A stretch of DNA of 48,297 nt from Arcobacter sp. F2176 (GTDB lineage Bacteria; Campylobacterota; Campylobacteria; Campylobacterales; Arcobacteraceae): contig NZ_PDJV01000021.1 of the NCBI RefSeq assembly GCF_004116465.1, positions 1 through 48,297 of the forward strand, written 5' to 3'. The notes beneath the pieces were generated by a model, which worked only from the letters and a program-made list of their open reading frames with translations, was not told the origin of the DNA and searched no databases. This document shows, piece by piece, positions 20,585 to 28,320 of the stretch (position 1 is its first letter; the number at the start of each line of letters is the position of its first letter). A program made the translations under genes and the position numbers.

Positions 20585-21466
20585 TCAATCTATATCGTAT
20601 CCCAGCTCTTTTAAGCCTTCTCTGTTTTTAGTCCAGCCTTTTTTAATAGAAACAAATAGTTCTAGGAAACATTTTTTACCGGTAAGTTTTTCTATTTTTT
20701 CTCTGGCATCTTTCCCTATTCTCTTTATTGCAGTTGCACCTTTACCAATAATCATACCTTTTTGAGTAGATTTTTGTACAATTATTGTAGCTTTTATTAC
20801 ATCAACATTCTTTTTCTCTTCAACTTTGTTTATTAAAACATCTGTTTCATAAGGTATCTCATCAGAAATATTTTCGAAAATTGACTCTCGTATAAACTCT
20901 TTAAAAATATCTCTTAAGTGTTCAGTTGTCAAAATCTCTGGATCAAACAAATAAGGGTGTTCAGGAAGATATTTTACAACTACATCTAAAATATCTGCAT
21001 GAGTTGTTGCTTTTTTTATTGATACTGGTATGATTGATTCATATTTATCAGAAAATTTTTCATACTCTTTCATTTTTGCTAAAACTTCTTCATTTGAGAC
21101 AAAATCTATTTTTGTAAGAAGTAAGATATGTTTTGTATTTTTTTTGTTTTTTTCTAAAAAAGCCTCATAATGAGAAACTTGATCAGTAACTGGTGCTAAA
21201 AATAAAATCAAATCGCAATCACCCATTGCTTTTAGTGCTTCATCAAGCATAAATTGATTTAATAGTTTTTCTGTTTCATGAATTCCTGGAGTATCTACAA
21301 ATATAACTTGGTCATCTTCATGCATAACTATTATATTTGATCTTTTTCTTGTAGCATTTGCTTTATGAGAAACCATCGCAATCTTTTCACCAACTAACCA
21401 ATTTAGTAGTGAACTCTTCCCTGCATTTGGTCTTCCTACTACTGATACATATCCGCATTTTGTCAT
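20585..21466 (-). CDS. era: Ribosome-assembly GTPase Era
   Basis: A 293-aa Era. G1 is GRPNAGKSS (residues 11-19), followed by G3 DTPGIHETE and G4 LLTKIDF. The C-terminal KH domain has GMIIGKGATAIKRIGKDARE. It binds the 3' end of 16S rRNA during 30S maturation. Length is normal. The segment upstream of its start holds an orphan copy of the yifB 3' end, implying that era and yifB were once direct neighbours. Confidence 0.97.
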   Translation of the reverse strand: MTKCGYVSVVGRPNAGKSSLLNWLVGEKIAMVSHKANATRKRSNIIVMHEDDQVIFVDTPGIHETEKLLNQFMLDEALKAMGDCDLILFLAPVTDQVSHYEAFLEKNKKNTKHILLLTKIDFVSNEEVLAKMKEYEKFSDKYESIIPVSIKKATTHADILDVVVKYLPEHPYLFDPEILTTEHLRDIFKEFIRESIFENISDEIPYETDVLINKVEEKKNVDVIKATIIVQKSTQKGMIIGKGATAIKRIGKDAREKIEKLTGKKCFLELFVSIKKGWTKNREGLKELGYDID

Positions 21467-21535
21467 TTTATCCCTTTGTAATCAATACGAAGTTTTCCTT
21501 CGTAAAATCTAATTTTTTCGCATTATACAATAATT

Positions 21536-21680
21536 TTATCTTTTTCTGAAACTAAGCGCCTCAAAAATATGTTCTTTTTTTATATTTACACTATTTTCCA
21601 AATCAGCAATCGTCCTTGATACTTTTAAAACTTTGTTAATACTTCTAAAAAATAGTAAATAGTTTGTCATTGATAAATTT
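21536..21680 (-). pseudogene. Orphan duplicate of the 3' end of yifB
   Basis: About 145 bp align without gaps to 25730-25874, the 3' end of the intact yifB gene. The first ~110 bp differ at one position, and the rest diverges progressively. In the minus frame it still reads FRSINKVLKV, then SRTIADLENSVNIKKEHIFE and ALSFRKR with the same TAA stop. The 5' part of the gene is absent. The copy abuts the era upstream region and a possible IS terminus, so it is a rearrangement scar. Confidence 0.9.
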
Positions 21681-21687
21681 ATATATA

Positions 21688-21722
21688 TAAAGACTGTTCA
21701 GAGTTTTGTGTCATTGCACTGT
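21688..21722. mobile_element. Possible solo terminal inverted repeat of an IS256-like element
   Basis: AAGACTGTTCAGAGTTTTGT (21690-21709) followed by GTCATTGCACTG begins exactly where similarity to yifB ends. It resembles ends of IS256-family elements, which often contain GTTCAG...TTTTGTGTCA. No transposase frame and no partner repeat is visible in the window. If correct, an IS insertion truncated the yifB copy and was later lost. Confidence 0.3.
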
Positions 21723-21800
21723 AGTATTAAGGTTCAATAGTCGTATATTAATAACTTTTAAGTACTTATTTTATATTAAGTCTAAAATTACAAATGTGTA

Positions 21801-21824
21801 CCCGTACATAAATTTATGCACGGG
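21801..21824. terminator. 24-bp near-perfect palindrome downstream of the SQR operon
   Basis: CCCGTACATAAA pairs with TTTATGCACGGG with one mismatched pair (A-C). It lies 29 nt after the DUF1641 stop on the minus strand. There is no long T-run after it, so it may be a terminator of the SQR operon or a protein-binding site. Confidence 0.45.
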
Positions 21825-21852
21825 CTTAATAGACAGTTATAAATTATACTTA

Positions 21853-22206
21853 TTAGAGTTGTTTTCCAATACCTTTTGTTAAATTTAACATAAACGCTAA
21901 TCCCCTTCTTGTATCTTCGTCTTTCATTAGTTTTAATAAACCAAATAAGGAAGGTACTTCATTTTTAGCATTTTCTCTTTTTGCATGACGTACAGCATTT
22001 TCAGTTATAAAACCTGCGGTTGCCATATTATCAATTGATGTTACCATCTTTTCAACCATTGGAGTTGTTGTCATTTCAATTTGATCAGATACTACTGCTA
22101 ATAAATCAATTAAATTATTCAATCTACCAGTTTGAACTAACATAGTCATTTGTTCTTCGATTTTTTGCATCTCTGCACTTTTTATTACTTTTACTTCTTC
22201 ACTCAT
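21853..22206 (-). CDS. DUF1641 protein, partner of SQR-like flavoprotein
   Basis: A 117-aa soluble helical protein. The core (MTMLVQTGRLNNLIDLLAVV and GLLKLMKDEDTRRGLAFMLN) is typical of DUF1641. The family often sits beside sulfide:quinone oxidoreductases or formate-dehydrogenase genes; its molecular role is not established to my knowledge. Here it follows the SQR-like gene by 9 nt and is surely co-transcribed. The start ATG has AGGAGAAAG upstream. Confidence 0.85.
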   Translation of the reverse strand: MSEEVKVIKSAEMQKIEEQMTMLVQTGRLNNLIDLLAVVSDQIEMTTTPMVEKMVTSIDNMATAGFITENAVRHAKRENAKNEVPSLFGLLKLMKDEDTRRGLAFMLNLTKGIGKQL

Positions 22207-22215
22207 AACTTTCTC

Positions 22216-23403
22216 CTATAACATACCTCGAGCAGCTGCCCAATATAAACCTTTATTAAAACCTAATCTTACGAAACTCCCTAATTTACTACAAGGTGTG
22301 GGTTTAACATCTTCTTCATAGTCATACCATAAAGGCATACCACAAGAAAGTCCCATTTGTGCAACAGCAATTACTTTACCATCATAAGACTCTGTAGGGT
22401 ACCCAAACCTAATTTCAGCAGCAATATTATCGGCAACTACATCAGTTTGATTGTGAATTGTCCCTCCTGCTTTTGAAACAGATAAATCAACTGTATCGCC
22501 TAAAGTATAAACATTGTCTAAACCTATTACTTTTAAGCTCTCTTTATCTGTAGGAAGCCAACCTTCATTATCTTTTGCTTTTGATAAGCCAGAATCCCTT
22601 ATAACTTTTGCTGCAATAAAAGGTGGAGTTGACATTAAAATATCAAATTCTATCTCTTCCCCTTCTTCAGAATATGCTATTTTCTTCTTTGGATCCACTT
22701 TATTTAAGGTAAATGATGTTTTATGTTTTACATTAATACCATCAAAAATCATTGGTAATACATTTGATGTCGGAACTTGTAAAAATAATCCATCTACTAC
22801 AGATTGTGCCTTTTTTGGATATGTATATACAATTTCAACATCATCTCTAACACCTCTTTCTGTTAAATAATCATGTAACATCATTGTTGTTTCAATAGGT
22901 GCAATTCCACATTGATGTGGAATATTTTCAGTTTTAGGAAAACTAACTGTAACTAACACTCTACCTTTTTTAAGTTTCTCAAACTTTTTAGCAATTTTTT
23001 TAGCACCTTCGTAAGTATAAAACCAATCTCCCCCCTCTTCAAGACCAGGAATTCTATCAGGTGCTACTTCACAACCTGTTGCAAGTACTAAATAATCATA
23101 TACATATTTTTTACCACTTTGAGCAACAACACAATTATTTTTTGTTTGAATATCAACTGCTGCATCCACATGAAAATTAATCTCAGGCATAAGAAGACTT
23201 TTTTGTTCTCTTATAAATTCATTTCCAGCTGATTTATGAAAAGCAACATACATAGCTCCTGGTCTATAAACATGCTTTGATGAATTTGAAATCATTGTAA
23301 TTTCTATTTCATCTCTGTCAATCTCAGGCATTAATTTTTTTGCTAAATTATTTGCGGTCATTGTTCCAGCAGTACCGCCACCAACAATAAGAATCTTTTT
23401 CAT
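22216..23403 (-). CDS. FAD-dependent oxidoreductase, probable sulfide:quinone oxidoreductase
   Basis: A 395-aa flavoprotein. The N-terminal dinucleotide motif is VGGGTAGTMTANNL (residues 7-20), and the second FAD motif is NVYTLGDTVDLS in the C-terminal half. Three Cys fit the SQR redox pattern: Cys111 (ATGCEVAP), Cys165 (HQCGIAPIE) and one in GLSCGMPLW. SQR oxidises sulfide to polysulfide and feeds electrons to the quinone pool at the inner membrane. Genes for DUF1641 (downstream) and a two-component system (upstream) share its direction. A different NAD(P)H or flavocytochrome-type role cannot be ruled out. Confidence 0.85.
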   Translation of the reverse strand: MKKILIVGGGTAGTMTANNLAKKLMPEIDRDEIEITMISNSSKHVYRPGAMYVAFHKSAGNEFIREQKSLLMPEINFHVDAAVDIQTKNNCVVAQSGKKYVYDYLVLATGCEVAPDRIPGLEEGGDWFYTYEGAKKIAKKFEKLKKGRVLVTVSFPKTENIPHQCGIAPIETTMMLHDYLTERGVRDDVEIVYTYPKKAQSVVDGLFLQVPTSNVLPMIFDGINVKHKTSFTLNKVDPKKKIAYSEEGEEIEFDILMSTPPFIAAKVIRDSGLSKAKDNEGWLPTDKESLKVIGLDNVYTLGDTVDLSVSKAGGTIHNQTDVVADNIAAEIRFGYPTESYDGKVIAVAQMGLSCGMPLWYDYEEDVKPTPCSKLGSFVRLGFNKGLYWAAARGML

Positions 23404-23498
23404 TTTTCACTCCTTACAACGTATGTAAAATATTGTAACAAAGCAAAACAAGGCAAATATAAGGTTTATATAAGATTTATATAAGGTTTTAAAATATG

Positions 23499-24182
23499 TT
23501 ATGAAAGATTTATTCTATATCCTAAACCTTTTAAGTTCTCAAAGAGTTCACTGTATAACTTTTTACGTAAGCCCACTATTACCATACGTATTGCATCAGG
23601 GGTTGCTTGTTCTTCCCAAATACTTTGTTCTATTAATTCTAAGGAGATAAACCCTTGTTTATTTTTTAAAAACAATTCCAATAAAAGCAACTCTTTTTTA
23701 GTAAGTTTTATTAACTTTGATTCTTTAAAAAGCATCTTTTTTAAATGGTCATATATAAAACCTCTACCTAAATTTACAGTTTCAATAATTTCATTACTAT
23801 TTGGCATATGAGAAGATATTGCAAAAAGTAATTCATCTATATCAATAGGTTTTTTTAAATAAAATTGAACTCCTGAATCAACTGCACGATTTAAATATGG
23901 AACAGCATTAAAAGCAGTCATTGTTATTCTCATGGTTTGAGGCGATATTGAAGCAAGTTTTTTCAAAAAAGTTAATCCATCAATCTGAGGCATTTGTATA
24001 TCCGTCAATACAATATCTGTTTTATTTATATTAAATTTTTCCAAAGCTTCTAAAGCATCACAAGCAACATATACTTCTTTAAAATAAATACTAAGAACTC
24101 TTTTTAACCACTTTAAAGTACTTTCATCATCTTCAACTATTAATATTGTATGAGATTGTAAACGAGAATATATTTTTTCCAT
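23499..24182 (-). CDS. OmpR-family response regulator
   Basis: A 227-aa regulator. The receiver domain (about 11-125) has acidic pocket Glu17-Asp18-Asp19, phospho-acceptor Asp61 in VLTDIQMPQ and Lys in YLKKPID. The C-terminal winged helix (about 150-227) includes LTKKELLLLELFLKNKQGFIS and IRMVIVGLRKKLY. It starts 1 nt after the kinase stop and 95 nt before the SQR-like start, so it is the likely regulator of that operon. Confidence 0.92.
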   Translation of the reverse strand: MEKIYSRLQSHTILIVEDDESTLKWLKRVLSIYFKEVYVACDALEALEKFNINKTDIVLTDIQMPQIDGLTFLKKLASISPQTMRITMTAFNAVPYLNRAVDSGVQFYLKKPIDIDELLFAISSHMPNSNEIIETVNLGRGFIYDHLKKMLFKESKLIKLTKKELLLLELFLKNKQGFISLELIEQSIWEEQATPDAIRMVIVGLRKKLYSELFENLKGLGYRINLS

Positions 24183-24183
24183 T

Positions 24184-25650
24184 TTACTCTTTCCCTTTTG
24201 GTAAAAATAGAGTAAATTTTGTGCCTTTATTTTGATTTTTTACACTTAATCTACCCTTCATATGATGTTCAATTATAACTTTCGACATATATAACCCAAT
24301 TCCACTACCTTTTTCTCTTGTACTAAAATATGGGTCAAATATTTTTTCAAAATATTTTTTATCAATTCCTCCACCATTATCTAAAATAGTTACTTTATTT
24401 TCAATATTTGTAGAACTTATATCAATATGTACATATCCATTTGTCACTTCTTTCTCTATGATTGCCATCATTGAATTATGAACCATATTCATAATAACTT
24501 GTCTAAATTCATTTGGGAAGCCTAAAACATCTAAAGTAGTATTCTTACTTACTACTATTTTTATATCAATGTTATTTAATTTTAGTTGAACATTAATAAG
24601 TCTTATTGCATCTTTAATATTTTTTAGCAAATTAAAAGTCTCTTTTTGTTTTGATATTCTAAAAAATTCTGAAAAGTCATCTATTGTTTGGGACATATAA
24701 TTAACTTTTTCCATGATTTCTAATTCTATCTCAAAAAGAAGCTCTTTATTTATCTCTTGTGCATTAGAAATATGTCTTAGTCCTTGAACTATAATGCCTA
24801 AGCCATTTAGAGGCTGTCTCCATTGATGAGCAATAGAATCAATCATCTCTCCCATAGCTGCAAGTCTTGATTGGTGGCACATAACTTCATATTGTTCTGT
24901 TCTTTTTGCAACTTCTAATTCGACTTGTCTTTTTAACTCTTCTTGGTATTTTATGTCATCCGTAATATCAGAAGTTATCATTACAATTGTATTTGTTATT
25001 TTTACATAACTAAGTGACATACTAGCATTTATATGTTCCCCAGATTTTGAAACGCATACTTTTCTAAAGTTTACAACACTTCCTTCTTTTATAGCTTTTT
25101 CTACTGCTGTTTCAGATGCTTTTTTATACTCTTCTGAGGATAATGATATGCATGATTCTTTATATAGTTCTTCCATTGTATAACCCATCATTTTTTGAAA
25201 GAAATTATTTGCATATAAAAACATACCATTTTTATTTAATATTGAAATTCCATTTGCAGCTAAATCAAAAACAGCTTGTAATTCCTCTTTTTTAGAAACT
25301 AAATCATGCATACTTTTTTTAAGTTCATTTTCCACATTGGAGTATTTAGTAATATCAAAAAAGTATAAACCTCCTAATTCACTATTAGGAATTTTTTGAA
25401 AACTAACTTCAAAACTAATTCCTTCCCAATAAATATTTATACTTTCTTCTTCTTGGTTTATTAAAGGTTTTAATAAATTATAGTTATTCTTAGAAAAGAG
25501 TTTATTCAATTTTTTATTTTTTACAGAGATATTAAATAATTCAAGCTGTTTACCACAACTTTCTACGATTTTTTCATTATTATCAATAAGTAAAATTATA
25601 GTTTTTGGTATTTCATTTAAATTTGCTAATTTCGAATCTCTAAATATCAT
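24184..25650 (-). CDS. Cytoplasmic PAS-PAS sensor histidine kinase
   Basis: A 488-aa kinase without membrane helices. A divergent first PAS-like region (about 12-105) is followed by a PAS domain with VFDLAANGISILNKNGMFLYAN (about 130-235) and a coiled coil. The H-box is RLAAMGEMIDSIAHQWRQPLNG with His275. The ATPase domain has DNGGG and GSGIGLYMSKVI. It pairs with the downstream regulator (1-nt gap). A soluble location suggests an internal cue such as sulfide, redox state or respiratory flux; this is inferred from the SQR-like target. Confidence 0.92.
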   Translation of the reverse strand: MIFRDSKLANLNEIPKTIILLIDNNEKIVESCGKQLELFNISVKNKKLNKLFSKNNYNLLKPLINQEEESINIYWEGISFEVSFQKIPNSELGGLYFFDITKYSNVENELKKSMHDLVSKKEELQAVFDLAANGISILNKNGMFLYANNFFQKMMGYTMEELYKESCISLSSEEYKKASETAVEKAIKEGSVVNFRKVCVSKSGEHINASMSLSYVKITNTIVMITSDITDDIKYQEELKRQVELEVAKRTEQYEVMCHQSRLAAMGEMIDSIAHQWRQPLNGLGIIVQGLRHISNAQEINKELLFEIELEIMEKVNYMSQTIDDFSEFFRISKQKETFNLLKNIKDAIRLINVQLKLNNIDIKIVVSKNTTLDVLGFPNEFRQVIMNMVHNSMMAIIEKEVTNGYVHIDISSTNIENKVTILDNGGGIDKKYFEKIFDPYFSTREKGSGIGLYMSKVIIEHHMKGRLSVKNQNKGTKFTLFLPKGKE

Positions 25651-25729
25651 GTAAACTCCATGGATATATTATAAAAATCACTATATCATAGATTGATAAG
25701 ATTAACATAAAGAATTGAAGAGAAACAAA

Positions 25730-27238
25730 TTATCTTTTTCTGAAACTAAGCGCCTCAAAAATATGTTCTTTTTTTATATTTACACTATTTTCCAAATCAG
25801 CAATCGTCCTTGCTACTTTTAAAACTTTGTTAATACTTCTAAAAGAGAGTGAATAATTTGTTGTTGCTAAATTTAAAATATTCTCACAAGTAGAATCCAA
25901 TATACAATACTTATTGATATCTTCATCTTTTAATTTTCCATTTAAATCACTCTGCCCTCTTTGCATTTGGATTTTAAAAGCATTTAAAACCATTTCATGC
26001 ATTTTTCTTGAACTTATATCTGCTTTATCATCATAATTTACCTCCGTCATTGTCACAAAAATATCAATTCTGTCACAAAAAGGATCTGATAGTTTTGATT
26101 TATATCTTGTGATTTCTAATTCATTACATCTACACTGTTTTGTAGCACTTAATAAATTGCCACAAGGACAAGGATTCATGGCACATGCAAATAAAAACTT
26201 TGTTTCATAATTTGTTTTTGAATTTACCCTTGAGATTAATATTTTATTGTCTTCTAGTGGTTCTCTCATTGATTCAAGTATAGCTTTTGGGAAATGTGGA
26301 AGTTCATCAAAGAACAATATCCCATTATTTGATAGAGCTATTTCCCCTATTTTAGAATTAATTGTACCTCCTCCAAATATTGATGCTCTTGTTGAAGTAT
26401 GATGTGGAGACCTAAAAACCGTACTTGCATCAAAGTTTGGCTCAATCAAATTGAGTGAATCTAATTTTGCTTTTTCTAGTATTTGTTCAACTGTTTGTGG
26501 TGGCATAATGTATTGTAACCTTTTTATTATCATAGACTTTCCACAACCAGGACTTCCTTCAAATATTATATTATGGTTACCACTTACAGCAATTAAAGCT
26601 GCCCTTTTCGCTACTTTTTGTCCTTTTACATCCAAAAAATCCAACATATATTTTTTGTTATAATAAAATTGTTTGTTTTTTATAAACAAAGTATTACAAG
26701 ACATTGTATATGGAGGAACTTTATACTGTTCTTTCTCTTTAGAATTAAAAAACATAATTGTATCATTTAAATTTTTTACACTATATACACTTATATTAGG
26801 AATCATTGCAATTTTATCTTCAATAGATTTTGGTACTAATACATTTAGTTTATCAACTTTTTTTGCTAAAGATAATATTGAAGGGAAGATGGAACTATTT
26901 TCTTTTAGTGTTCCATCAAGGGCTAATTCTGCAAAAATATAAAAATCATCAAATTTTACTTTGGTGTCATATAAAGCTACAAGTAATGCAATTGATAAAT
27001 CAAAATGAGTACCATTTTTATTTATATCTGAAGGTGAAAGATTGATAGTGATTTTTTTAGGTGGAAACTTAAAATCATTTGTTAATAAAGCAGATTTTAC
27101 TCTATCTTTTGACTCTTGAATAGAAGAACTAGCTAATCCAACTATTGAAAAACTAGGTAATCCTTTTGTAAATGTAGCCTCAACATCCACACAAATTGCA
27201 TCCAATGACTCTAAAGTAGCACTTTTGATAGTTTTCAT
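25730..27238 (-). CDS. yifB: YifB/ComM-type Mg-chelatase-like AAA+ ATPase
   Basis: A 502-aa YifB. The N-terminal Lon-protease-like domain covers about 1-165 (CVDVEATFTKGLPSFSIVGL). The AAA+ core has Walker A EGSPGCGKSMIIKR, GEIALSNNGILFFDELPHF as Walker B, and a zinc-type Cys cluster CAMNPCPCGN...CRC. The C-terminal Mg_chelatase_C domain ends ALSFRKR. ComM orthologues are hexameric branch-migration helicases acting in natural transformation, which fits the nearby T2SS/competence-like genes. Its last ~48 codons are duplicated at 21536-21680. Confidence 0.95.
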   Translation of the reverse strand: MKTIKSATLESLDAICVDVEATFTKGLPSFSIVGLASSSIQESKDRVKSALLTNDFKFPPKKITINLSPSDINKNGTHFDLSIALLVALYDTKVKFDDFYIFAELALDGTLKENSSIFPSILSLAKKVDKLNVLVPKSIEDKIAMIPNISVYSVKNLNDTIMFFNSKEKEQYKVPPYTMSCNTLFIKNKQFYYNKKYMLDFLDVKGQKVAKRAALIAVSGNHNIIFEGSPGCGKSMIIKRLQYIMPPQTVEQILEKAKLDSLNLIEPNFDASTVFRSPHHTSTRASIFGGGTINSKIGEIALSNNGILFFDELPHFPKAILESMREPLEDNKILISRVNSKTNYETKFLFACAMNPCPCGNLLSATKQCRCNELEITRYKSKLSDPFCDRIDIFVTMTEVNYDDKADISSRKMHEMVLNAFKIQMQRGQSDLNGKLKDEDINKYCILDSTCENILNLATTNYSLSFRSINKVLKVARTIADLENSVNIKKEHIFEALSFRKR

Positions 27239-27321: not shown

Positions 27322-28320
27322 TTATCTAATAAAAGTACCTTTTAATATAGCTGGATTATAATAAACATACATAAATAATATTATCAATAAAATTATCCAT
27401 GAAGATATATAAATTATCATAGCCTTTTTAGCTTTTTCTTTTTCCTGCCATAATCTAGGCCTAATACCTTTAATAAAAAATACTATTTTACTAGCTAAAT
27501 TAATGCTAGTTATATTAATCAAAAGCAAAACTCCAGCTCCAATTGCTAAATCGCTATTTCCTGAGCCAATCATAATTCCCAAAACAGCAGCAGGAGGTAA
27601 TAATGCAGCAGATACCATAACTCCCACTAATACACTAGATAAACCCGTAGTAATTGACAAAGATGCAGCAGCACCTGAAGCTAAAGCAAGAATAAAAGAG
27701 TCATAACTAACTTCTGTTCTTGATAATAATTCATGGGCATCAAAAGTTTGATTAAAAATCATTGCAAAAAACATTGGAAGCATTATTGATATAAAAAGAC
27801 CAAATAGAACTGTTTTACTTGAAGAATACATTAGCTTAGTATCCCCAATTGAGGCTGAAAAACTAAATGCAATATTGGGTCCTAGTAGTGGAGCAATAAC
27901 CATTGCTCCTATAATAATTGCTAAATTATTATGAATTAGTCCTATTGTGGCCACAATTGTAGAAAAAACTAATAAAGAAATATAGTTTGAATTAATATCA
28001 CTATTTTCTTTCATTTCCTTATATATTGTTTCTTTTGCAGCATTTGCTTCATTTTCTTTTTTTTCTTTTTCTTCTGATTCTTTGGGTAAATAAGCTTCTA
28101 TTGGAAGAATCATCACTTTAGAAGTAACTTGATCTCCCATAATATGGCAAAAACTATCTATAGTTTTTTGCAAATTATAATCAGATACAATCATTCTTGA
28201 TACTTGCATACCATCTTTATCTACAGGAGAAAAACGCAAGTCTTTAGCTTTTACATTTTCTGCAATCTTCTTTACAAGTTCATTGCTTGATTCATTTAGA
28301 ACTACTTCAAGATATTTCAT
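27322..28320 (-). CDS. DUF389 integral membrane protein
   Basis: A 332-aa protein. A cytosolic N-terminal domain (about 1-120, MKYLEVVLNESSNELVKKI) with a charged Glu/Lys linker precedes about six membrane helices. The hallmark GLIHNNLAIIIGAMVIAPLLGPN and ALASGAAASLSITTGLSSVL are those of DUF389 (TIGR00341-type). The substrate is unknown. It starts 31 nt before def and may be read with the def-clpP-tig group. Length is normal. Confidence 0.88.
   Translation of the reverse strand: MKYLEVVLNESSNELVKKIAENVKAKDLRFSPVDKDGMQVSRMIVSDYNLQKTIDSFCHIMGDQVTSKVMILPIEAYLPKESEEKEKKENEANAAKETIYKEMKENSDINSNYISLLVFSTIVATIGLIHNNLAIIIGAMVIAPLLGPNIAFSFSASIGDTKLMYSSSKTVLFGLFISIMLPMFFAMIFNQTFDAHELLSRTEVSYDSFILALASGAAASLSITTGLSSVLVGVMVSAALLPPAAVLGIMIGSGNSDLAIGAGVLLLINITSINLASKIVFFIKGIRPRLWQEKEKAKKAMIIYISSWIILLIILFMYVYYNPAILKGTFIR

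Follow-up and report, generated by a model that had tools for sequence, protein, structure and literature searches.

Gene content of the era-yifB interval

The window is the whole stretch of DNA analysed, the 48,297 nucleotides of contig C21 in the draft assembly (98 contigs) of Arcobacter sp. F2176. Comparisons were made in a family sample of one genome per species, where G000 is the window genome and G001 and G002 are genomes of the same genus. In the window, a cassette of four genes lies between era and yifB, and the 3′ end of yifB is present twice. The features are:

20585–21466, minus strand: era, intact; Pfam MMR_HSR1 and KH_2; 94% nucleotide identity to G001
21467–21535, minus strand: ancestral spacer from the yifB tail copy to era, containing TGTATAAT, promoter-like by eye; G001 and G002 have nearly the same spacer
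21536–21681, minus strand: copy of the yifB 3′ end (codons 454–502 and stop), the displaced old end, partly decayed; 138/146 identical to 25730–25875
21690–21719, plus strand: IS256-family end relic, tip toward the yifB tail copy and truncated interior toward the cassette; exact 22-base motif, profile E-value 1.9e-4
21720–21852, no strand: spacer with a 24-bp near-palindrome at 21801–21824 (self-match 22/24), terminator-like by eye
21853–22206, minus strand: DUF1641 protein, 117 aa; PF07849, 48.3 bits (cut-off 21)
22216–23403, minus strand: sulfide:quinone reductase (SQR)-like flavoprotein, 395 aa, type III model nearest; Pfam Pyr_redox_2, family models and solved SQRs
23499–24182, minus strand: response regulator with winged-helix output domain, 227 aa; PF00072 (Response_reg) and PF00486 (Trans_reg_C)
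24184–25650, minus strand: PAS-domain histidine kinase, 488 aa; PF13426 and PF02518 (HATPase)
25651–25714, minus strand: cassette leader with a promoter-like TATGATATAG, common to G065 and G034
25715–25729, minus strand: joint of 15 bp from the yifB stop to the cassette homology
25730–27238, minus strand: yifB, intact, a comM-type AAA ATPase; TIGR00368; 91% aa identity to G001

The intact yifB scores 438.7 bits against TIGR00368 (cut-off 362.4). Upstream of it is a DUF389 membrane gene (27322–28320), which by eye is also found in G002 and is missing between the same neighbours in G001.

Positions 21536–21681 and 25730–25875 form a direct repeat of 146 bp with 138 identical positions, spaced 4,194 bp apart, and the yifB stop is the end point of both copies. 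The repeat has a BLAST E-value of ~6e-62 (85-kb database), which excludes chance. The copies have an exact stretch of 83 bp in common. The first-pass annotation had described a duplicated yifB end of about 145 bp, including the stop, with this same spacing, and had placed kinase, regulator, SQR-like and DUF1641 genes between the copies; the alignment and the Pfam matches bear out both statements. No further yifB or yifB-tail match occurs elsewhere in the assembly, and a second yifB tail is found in G000 only, among the 97 genomes with a yifB match.

The best model for the SQR-like protein is NF049943 (type III, selenoprotein subtype), with 271.5 bits, which is below the cut-off of 525. The protein matches solved SQRs with an E-value of 1e-20, its Cys165 aligns with a Cys of human SQR, and Cys111, Cys165, Cys354 and Cys371 are invariant in 12 of 12 sequences. 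From these families we infer that the cassette is a putative self-regulated sulfide-oxidation operon. The kinase and regulator would probably switch on the SQR; going by family knowledge, the SQR would oxidise sulfide and pass electrons to quinone, with the DUF1641 protein as its presumed small partner. Literature searches found no paper pairing DUF1641 with sulfide quinone and none combining Arcobacter, sulfide quinone oxidoreductase and histidine kinase.

Ancestral neighbourhood and carriers of the cassette

In G001 and G002 the yifB stop lies 68 bp from era (in G002 this is the 3′ half of a split yifB). The tail copy, the spacer and era of the window align to this yifB-era arrangement of the congeners with the ancestral spacing kept. 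From the adjacency in the congeners and the alignment of the fragment, it follows that the tail copy is the old yifB end and that the cassette is the newcomer. Thus yifB and era were ancestrally adjacent, and the cassette was inserted later.

The same arrangement prevails in the family. In the adjacency count, 94 of the 97 yifB-match genomes were entered (104 searched); G007, G039 and G073 were left out as they have only pieces without the ordinary 3′ half of yifB, and the 3′ half was taken where yifB is split. G020 is without an era row, and 19 genomes have yifB and era on separate contigs. In the 74 genomes with both genes on the same contig, they lie within 200 bp and in the same direction in 53, are separated by an insert of 218 to 10,136 bp in 13 (G000 included), and are apart in eight. 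Adjacency in relatives without the cassette had been predicted by the first-pass annotation and is what was found; a universal cassette with no adjacency anywhere is not the pattern in the family. Nine of the 12 other yifB-era inserts were inspected by eye: a few are common to relatives, and the four genes of the window are in none. Inserts in the yifB-era interval at L040–L046, L049 and L051 are unrelated, belong to several genera and reach 10 kb (G058).

The SQR is present at 79% identity or more in 16 of 104 genomes, G001 and G002 not among them, and the same 16 have the kinase at 52% identity or more. The four-gene order is kept in 15 of 15 other carrier genomes. By eye the carriers show about nine settings, one with five genomes, one with four, and seven genomes each alone. 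The stretch homologous to the G065 cassette extends from position 25714, in the promoter-like leader, to ~21845, at the DUF1641 stop. In a tree of the joined cassette proteins, G000 groups with G065, which belongs to another genus (support 99/98), and then with G034 (100/99); a topology in which G065 and the three other genomes of its genus form one clade is rejected (p-AU = 7e-71). In this tree G087 forms a long branch and one row has an odd composition. The conserved order in about nine settings, together with a tree that goes against the genera, is sequence evidence that the cassette moves horizontally. The tree comparison had been proposed in the first-pass annotation, and its outcome, with the adjacency in congeners lacking the cassette, supports the suggested insertion next to era and yifB. 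The nucleotide composition check proposed with it gave no signal: the GC content of the cassette is 0.284 and that of the window 0.271, which is uninformative as to foreign composition.

No plasmid match to positions 21470–21853 and no viral contig encoding a yifB relative was found, and carriage by a plasmid or virus was rejected on these two results. Plasmid relatives of the SQR are seen only under 60% identity.

Outside the family, 80 loci were fetched and ten checked. SQR is followed by DUF1641 in nine of the ten, as in the type III SQR and DUF1641 pairs of Proteobacteria; unlike in these, a kinase-regulator pair precedes the SQR in the window. Among the ten loci the pair is found only in two from Sulfurimonadaceae, which have the same four genes. 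With a sensor pair linked to SQR and DUF1641, the operon has the appearance of a module for sulfide response that is portable among Campylobacterota.

The tail copy and the IS256-family end

The mismatches between the two copies of the repeat are clustered: seven of eight are within the 38 bp most distant from the stop (hypergeometric P = 3.4e-4). Thus the tail copy is not uniformly decayed. In the distal 38 bp it alone has Ser for an Ala found in 45 of 46 tails and Phe for a residue that is Ser or Thr in 45 of 46, and since it departs alone at two conserved residues, this part is decaying.

The source of the copy was examined with 46 distinct yifB tails, the two G000 copies counted in. Over the last 108 bp the copy agrees with the intact G000 yifB at 107 sites (one differing site) and with G001 at 94. 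In the decayed 38 bp the nearest tail is again the intact G000 copy (31/38), by a small margin over G001 (30/38); all others have 27/38 or less. Identity of the intact yifB to G001 shows no step toward the 3′ end. A foreign tail should differ as species do; from the agreement at 107 of 108 sites we conclude that the duplication derives from the lineage's own yifB or from a same-species donor. The first-pass annotation had considered a cassette carrying its own yifB tail; a foreign tail brought in this way is not supported, as the copy shares the host bases and no compared tail is closer. We infer that the 108 bp of the two tails were evened out later by gene conversion; mutations clustered at the join could also explain the pattern.

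On its far side the cassette meets the tail copy at an IS256-family end. The relic at 21690–21719 matches the terminal inverted repeat of IS256-type elements. With up to three mismatches allowed, its motif occurs three times in G000 (0 reversed) and in 44 of 104 family genomes, with no reversed matches in any row. G017 has seven copies, each 111 bp before a PF00872 (IS256-type transposase) domain, and G027, G059 and G061 have one copy each, 1,662 bp behind a gene of this type. The end in the window is within ~10 bp of the edge of the tail copy, a placement with a chance of ~4e-5 by our own arithmetic on motif counts. It is a relic only and not a whole IS; no target-site duplication is readable at it, and G000 has no PF00872 gene.

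For an end profile, 28 end sequences were extracted and the 12 of the long right-end type were used (L211 had been left out beforehand). Run on both strands of cassette and control loci totalling 292 kb, the profile finds the three known G000 relics and one in G090. The two further solo relics of G000 are at C12:35952–35973 (L069, L128) and C34:5218–5239 (L129). The G090 relic (L114, 4716–4813) follows the cassette of that genome, 32 bp past the DUF1641 stop, and faces opposite to that of the window; the chance of this placement is ~3% (own arithmetic). Two of 16 cassette loci (G000 and G090) thus have a relic within ~160 bp of the DUF1641 stop. A common IS256 mechanism for the two is only hinted at, because the G090 end faces the other way.

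Possible routes of insertion and yifB as a target

The cassette was probably acquired by IS-associated duplicative insertion of a horizontally moving sulfide-oxidation operon between yifB and era. An IS256-family element would have been involved, either inserted in yifB ~150 bp before its stop or riding with the cassette. Duplicative recombination would then have placed a complete yifB end with the cassette on one side and the IS end with the old tail on the other, the tail being left at era as a pseudogene scar. The intact yifB now runs into the cassette, and neither yifB nor era is disrupted. The role of the IS is read from its position alone, because only an IS end is left and G000 is without an IS256-type transposase. 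No intermediate, i.e. yifB interrupted by the IS or a cassette behind yifB without a tail copy, was found in the 104 genomes. Tandem duplication followed by deletion, also raised in the first-pass annotation, is a possible origin of the repeat, but an event that involved an IS is suggested by the IS256-family end at the join.

Homology-facilitated illegitimate recombination during DNA uptake, with no IS, is possible though rather unlikely. A donor yifB-cassette allele would have crossed over within yifB, and the other end would have joined illegitimately, pushing the old 3′ end downstream. The far join is indeed non-homologous, and the layout equals the model for orphaned 3′ ends given in the available part of PMC5361080. 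Against this, the cassette is behind yifB in no carrier of the 16 except G000, no donor allele for the homologous junction was found, and any donor would have to be near-identical in view of the even yifB identity to G001; the IS end at the join is left unexplained. Campbell-type single-crossover insertion of a circle carrying the cassette, the IS end and a yifB tail accounts for a repeat that brackets the insert in direct orientation, and the ancestral junction would re-form if the copies recombined. It is nevertheless unlikely, as the tail is the host's own (nearest of 46 tails) and neither a plasmid match to 21470–21853 nor a viral contig with a yifB relative was found.

Integration often takes place at the 3′ end of a gene, which the element then reconstitutes, and the tail could be an attachment site in integrase-driven, site-specific integration at the yifB 3′ end; with no integrase in the interval and a second tail in a single genome, this is extremely improbable. 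An assembly error at the repeat might be suspected in a draft with 83 bp of exact identity between the copies, but short reads normally span 83 bp, the copies differ at eight sites, and the assembly has no alternative yifB-era junction; such an error is very unlikely. A broader extension of the IS-associated insertion is that IS256-family ends repeatedly help the SQR operon cross genera and that the 146-bp repeats make the G000 cassette a reversible unit. This is unlikely; if true, a circle of 4,194 bp would be released when the repeats recombine, and the ancestral junction of yifB and era would re-form.

The locus is a physical record of gene gain beside era and yifB, as had been proposed. 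Scars of this kind are known, and as a trace of horizontal gene gain this one is clear but unremarkable; the analysis adds the IS256-family end where cassette and tail copy meet, the derivation of the tail copy from the host's own lineage, and the finding that the four genes move horizontally as a unit. The locus lets one read how an energy-metabolism operon with no recombinase gene came to lie among core genes: both neighbours are left intact, and the scar shows the former boundary.

Orphaned 3′ ends, together with immunity-gene arrays, are described for the T6SS clusters of Vibrio cholerae in the available part of PMC5361080. As described there, an incoming module joins a resident gene and the old 3′ end is shifted downstream as a fragment, as in the window. 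The window differs from those clusters in its resident gene (housekeeping yifB), in its module (a metabolic operon), in a fragment that comes from the host's own yifB, and in the IS256-family end that marks the join. Tn6022-like and Tsy transposons target comM, according to the portion of PMC10293859 consulted, and the target gene family is the same; the window cassette is without tns and integrase genes, and the yifB that it follows is intact. A Tn7-like, Tsy or integrase origin was rejected for the cassette, which has four genes only and no tns or tyrosine recombinase pair.

Of the 97 genomes with a match, ten have a yifB that is interrupted by a large insert or spread over two contigs; the break points are at codons 45–48, ~224, 291–305 and 358–370. 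Tn7-like or integrase-like elements are found in nine of the ten, eight with tns genes (recognised by their similarity to reference sets taken from three of these genomes) and one integrase-like. The eight Tn7-like splits are at codons 45–48, 291 and 358–370:

L038 ~5668 to L039 ~3764 (G002): Tn7-like split yifB
L047 (G084), L048–L049 (G061), L050–L051 (G033), L052 (G009): Tn7-like split yifB
L053–L054 (G030), L056–L057 (G006), L058–L059 (G078): Tn7-like split yifB

By Pfam the G002 insert has TnsA, a Mu-type transposase C-terminus, TniB, TniQ and TnsE_C. The ends of this element show, by eye, a 5-bp duplication (acctc). Encoded in the G013 insert (L055, 2627–7457) are a protein resembling integrases, a second, small one, and a large one whose integrase match is below threshold, a set that resembles the Tsy layout for comM in the consulted portion of PMC10293859. 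G093 (L060, 279–2334) has a sub-threshold integrase match only and is a weak counterpart of the G013 set. In this family, Tn7-like and Tsy-like elements have repeatedly targeted yifB. No on-topic paper joining comM, Arcobacter and transposon was found, as judged by title. The sites at codons 291–305 are just before FFDE (residues 309–312), near the Walker B motif, which is a named target in comM in that same portion of PMC10293859.
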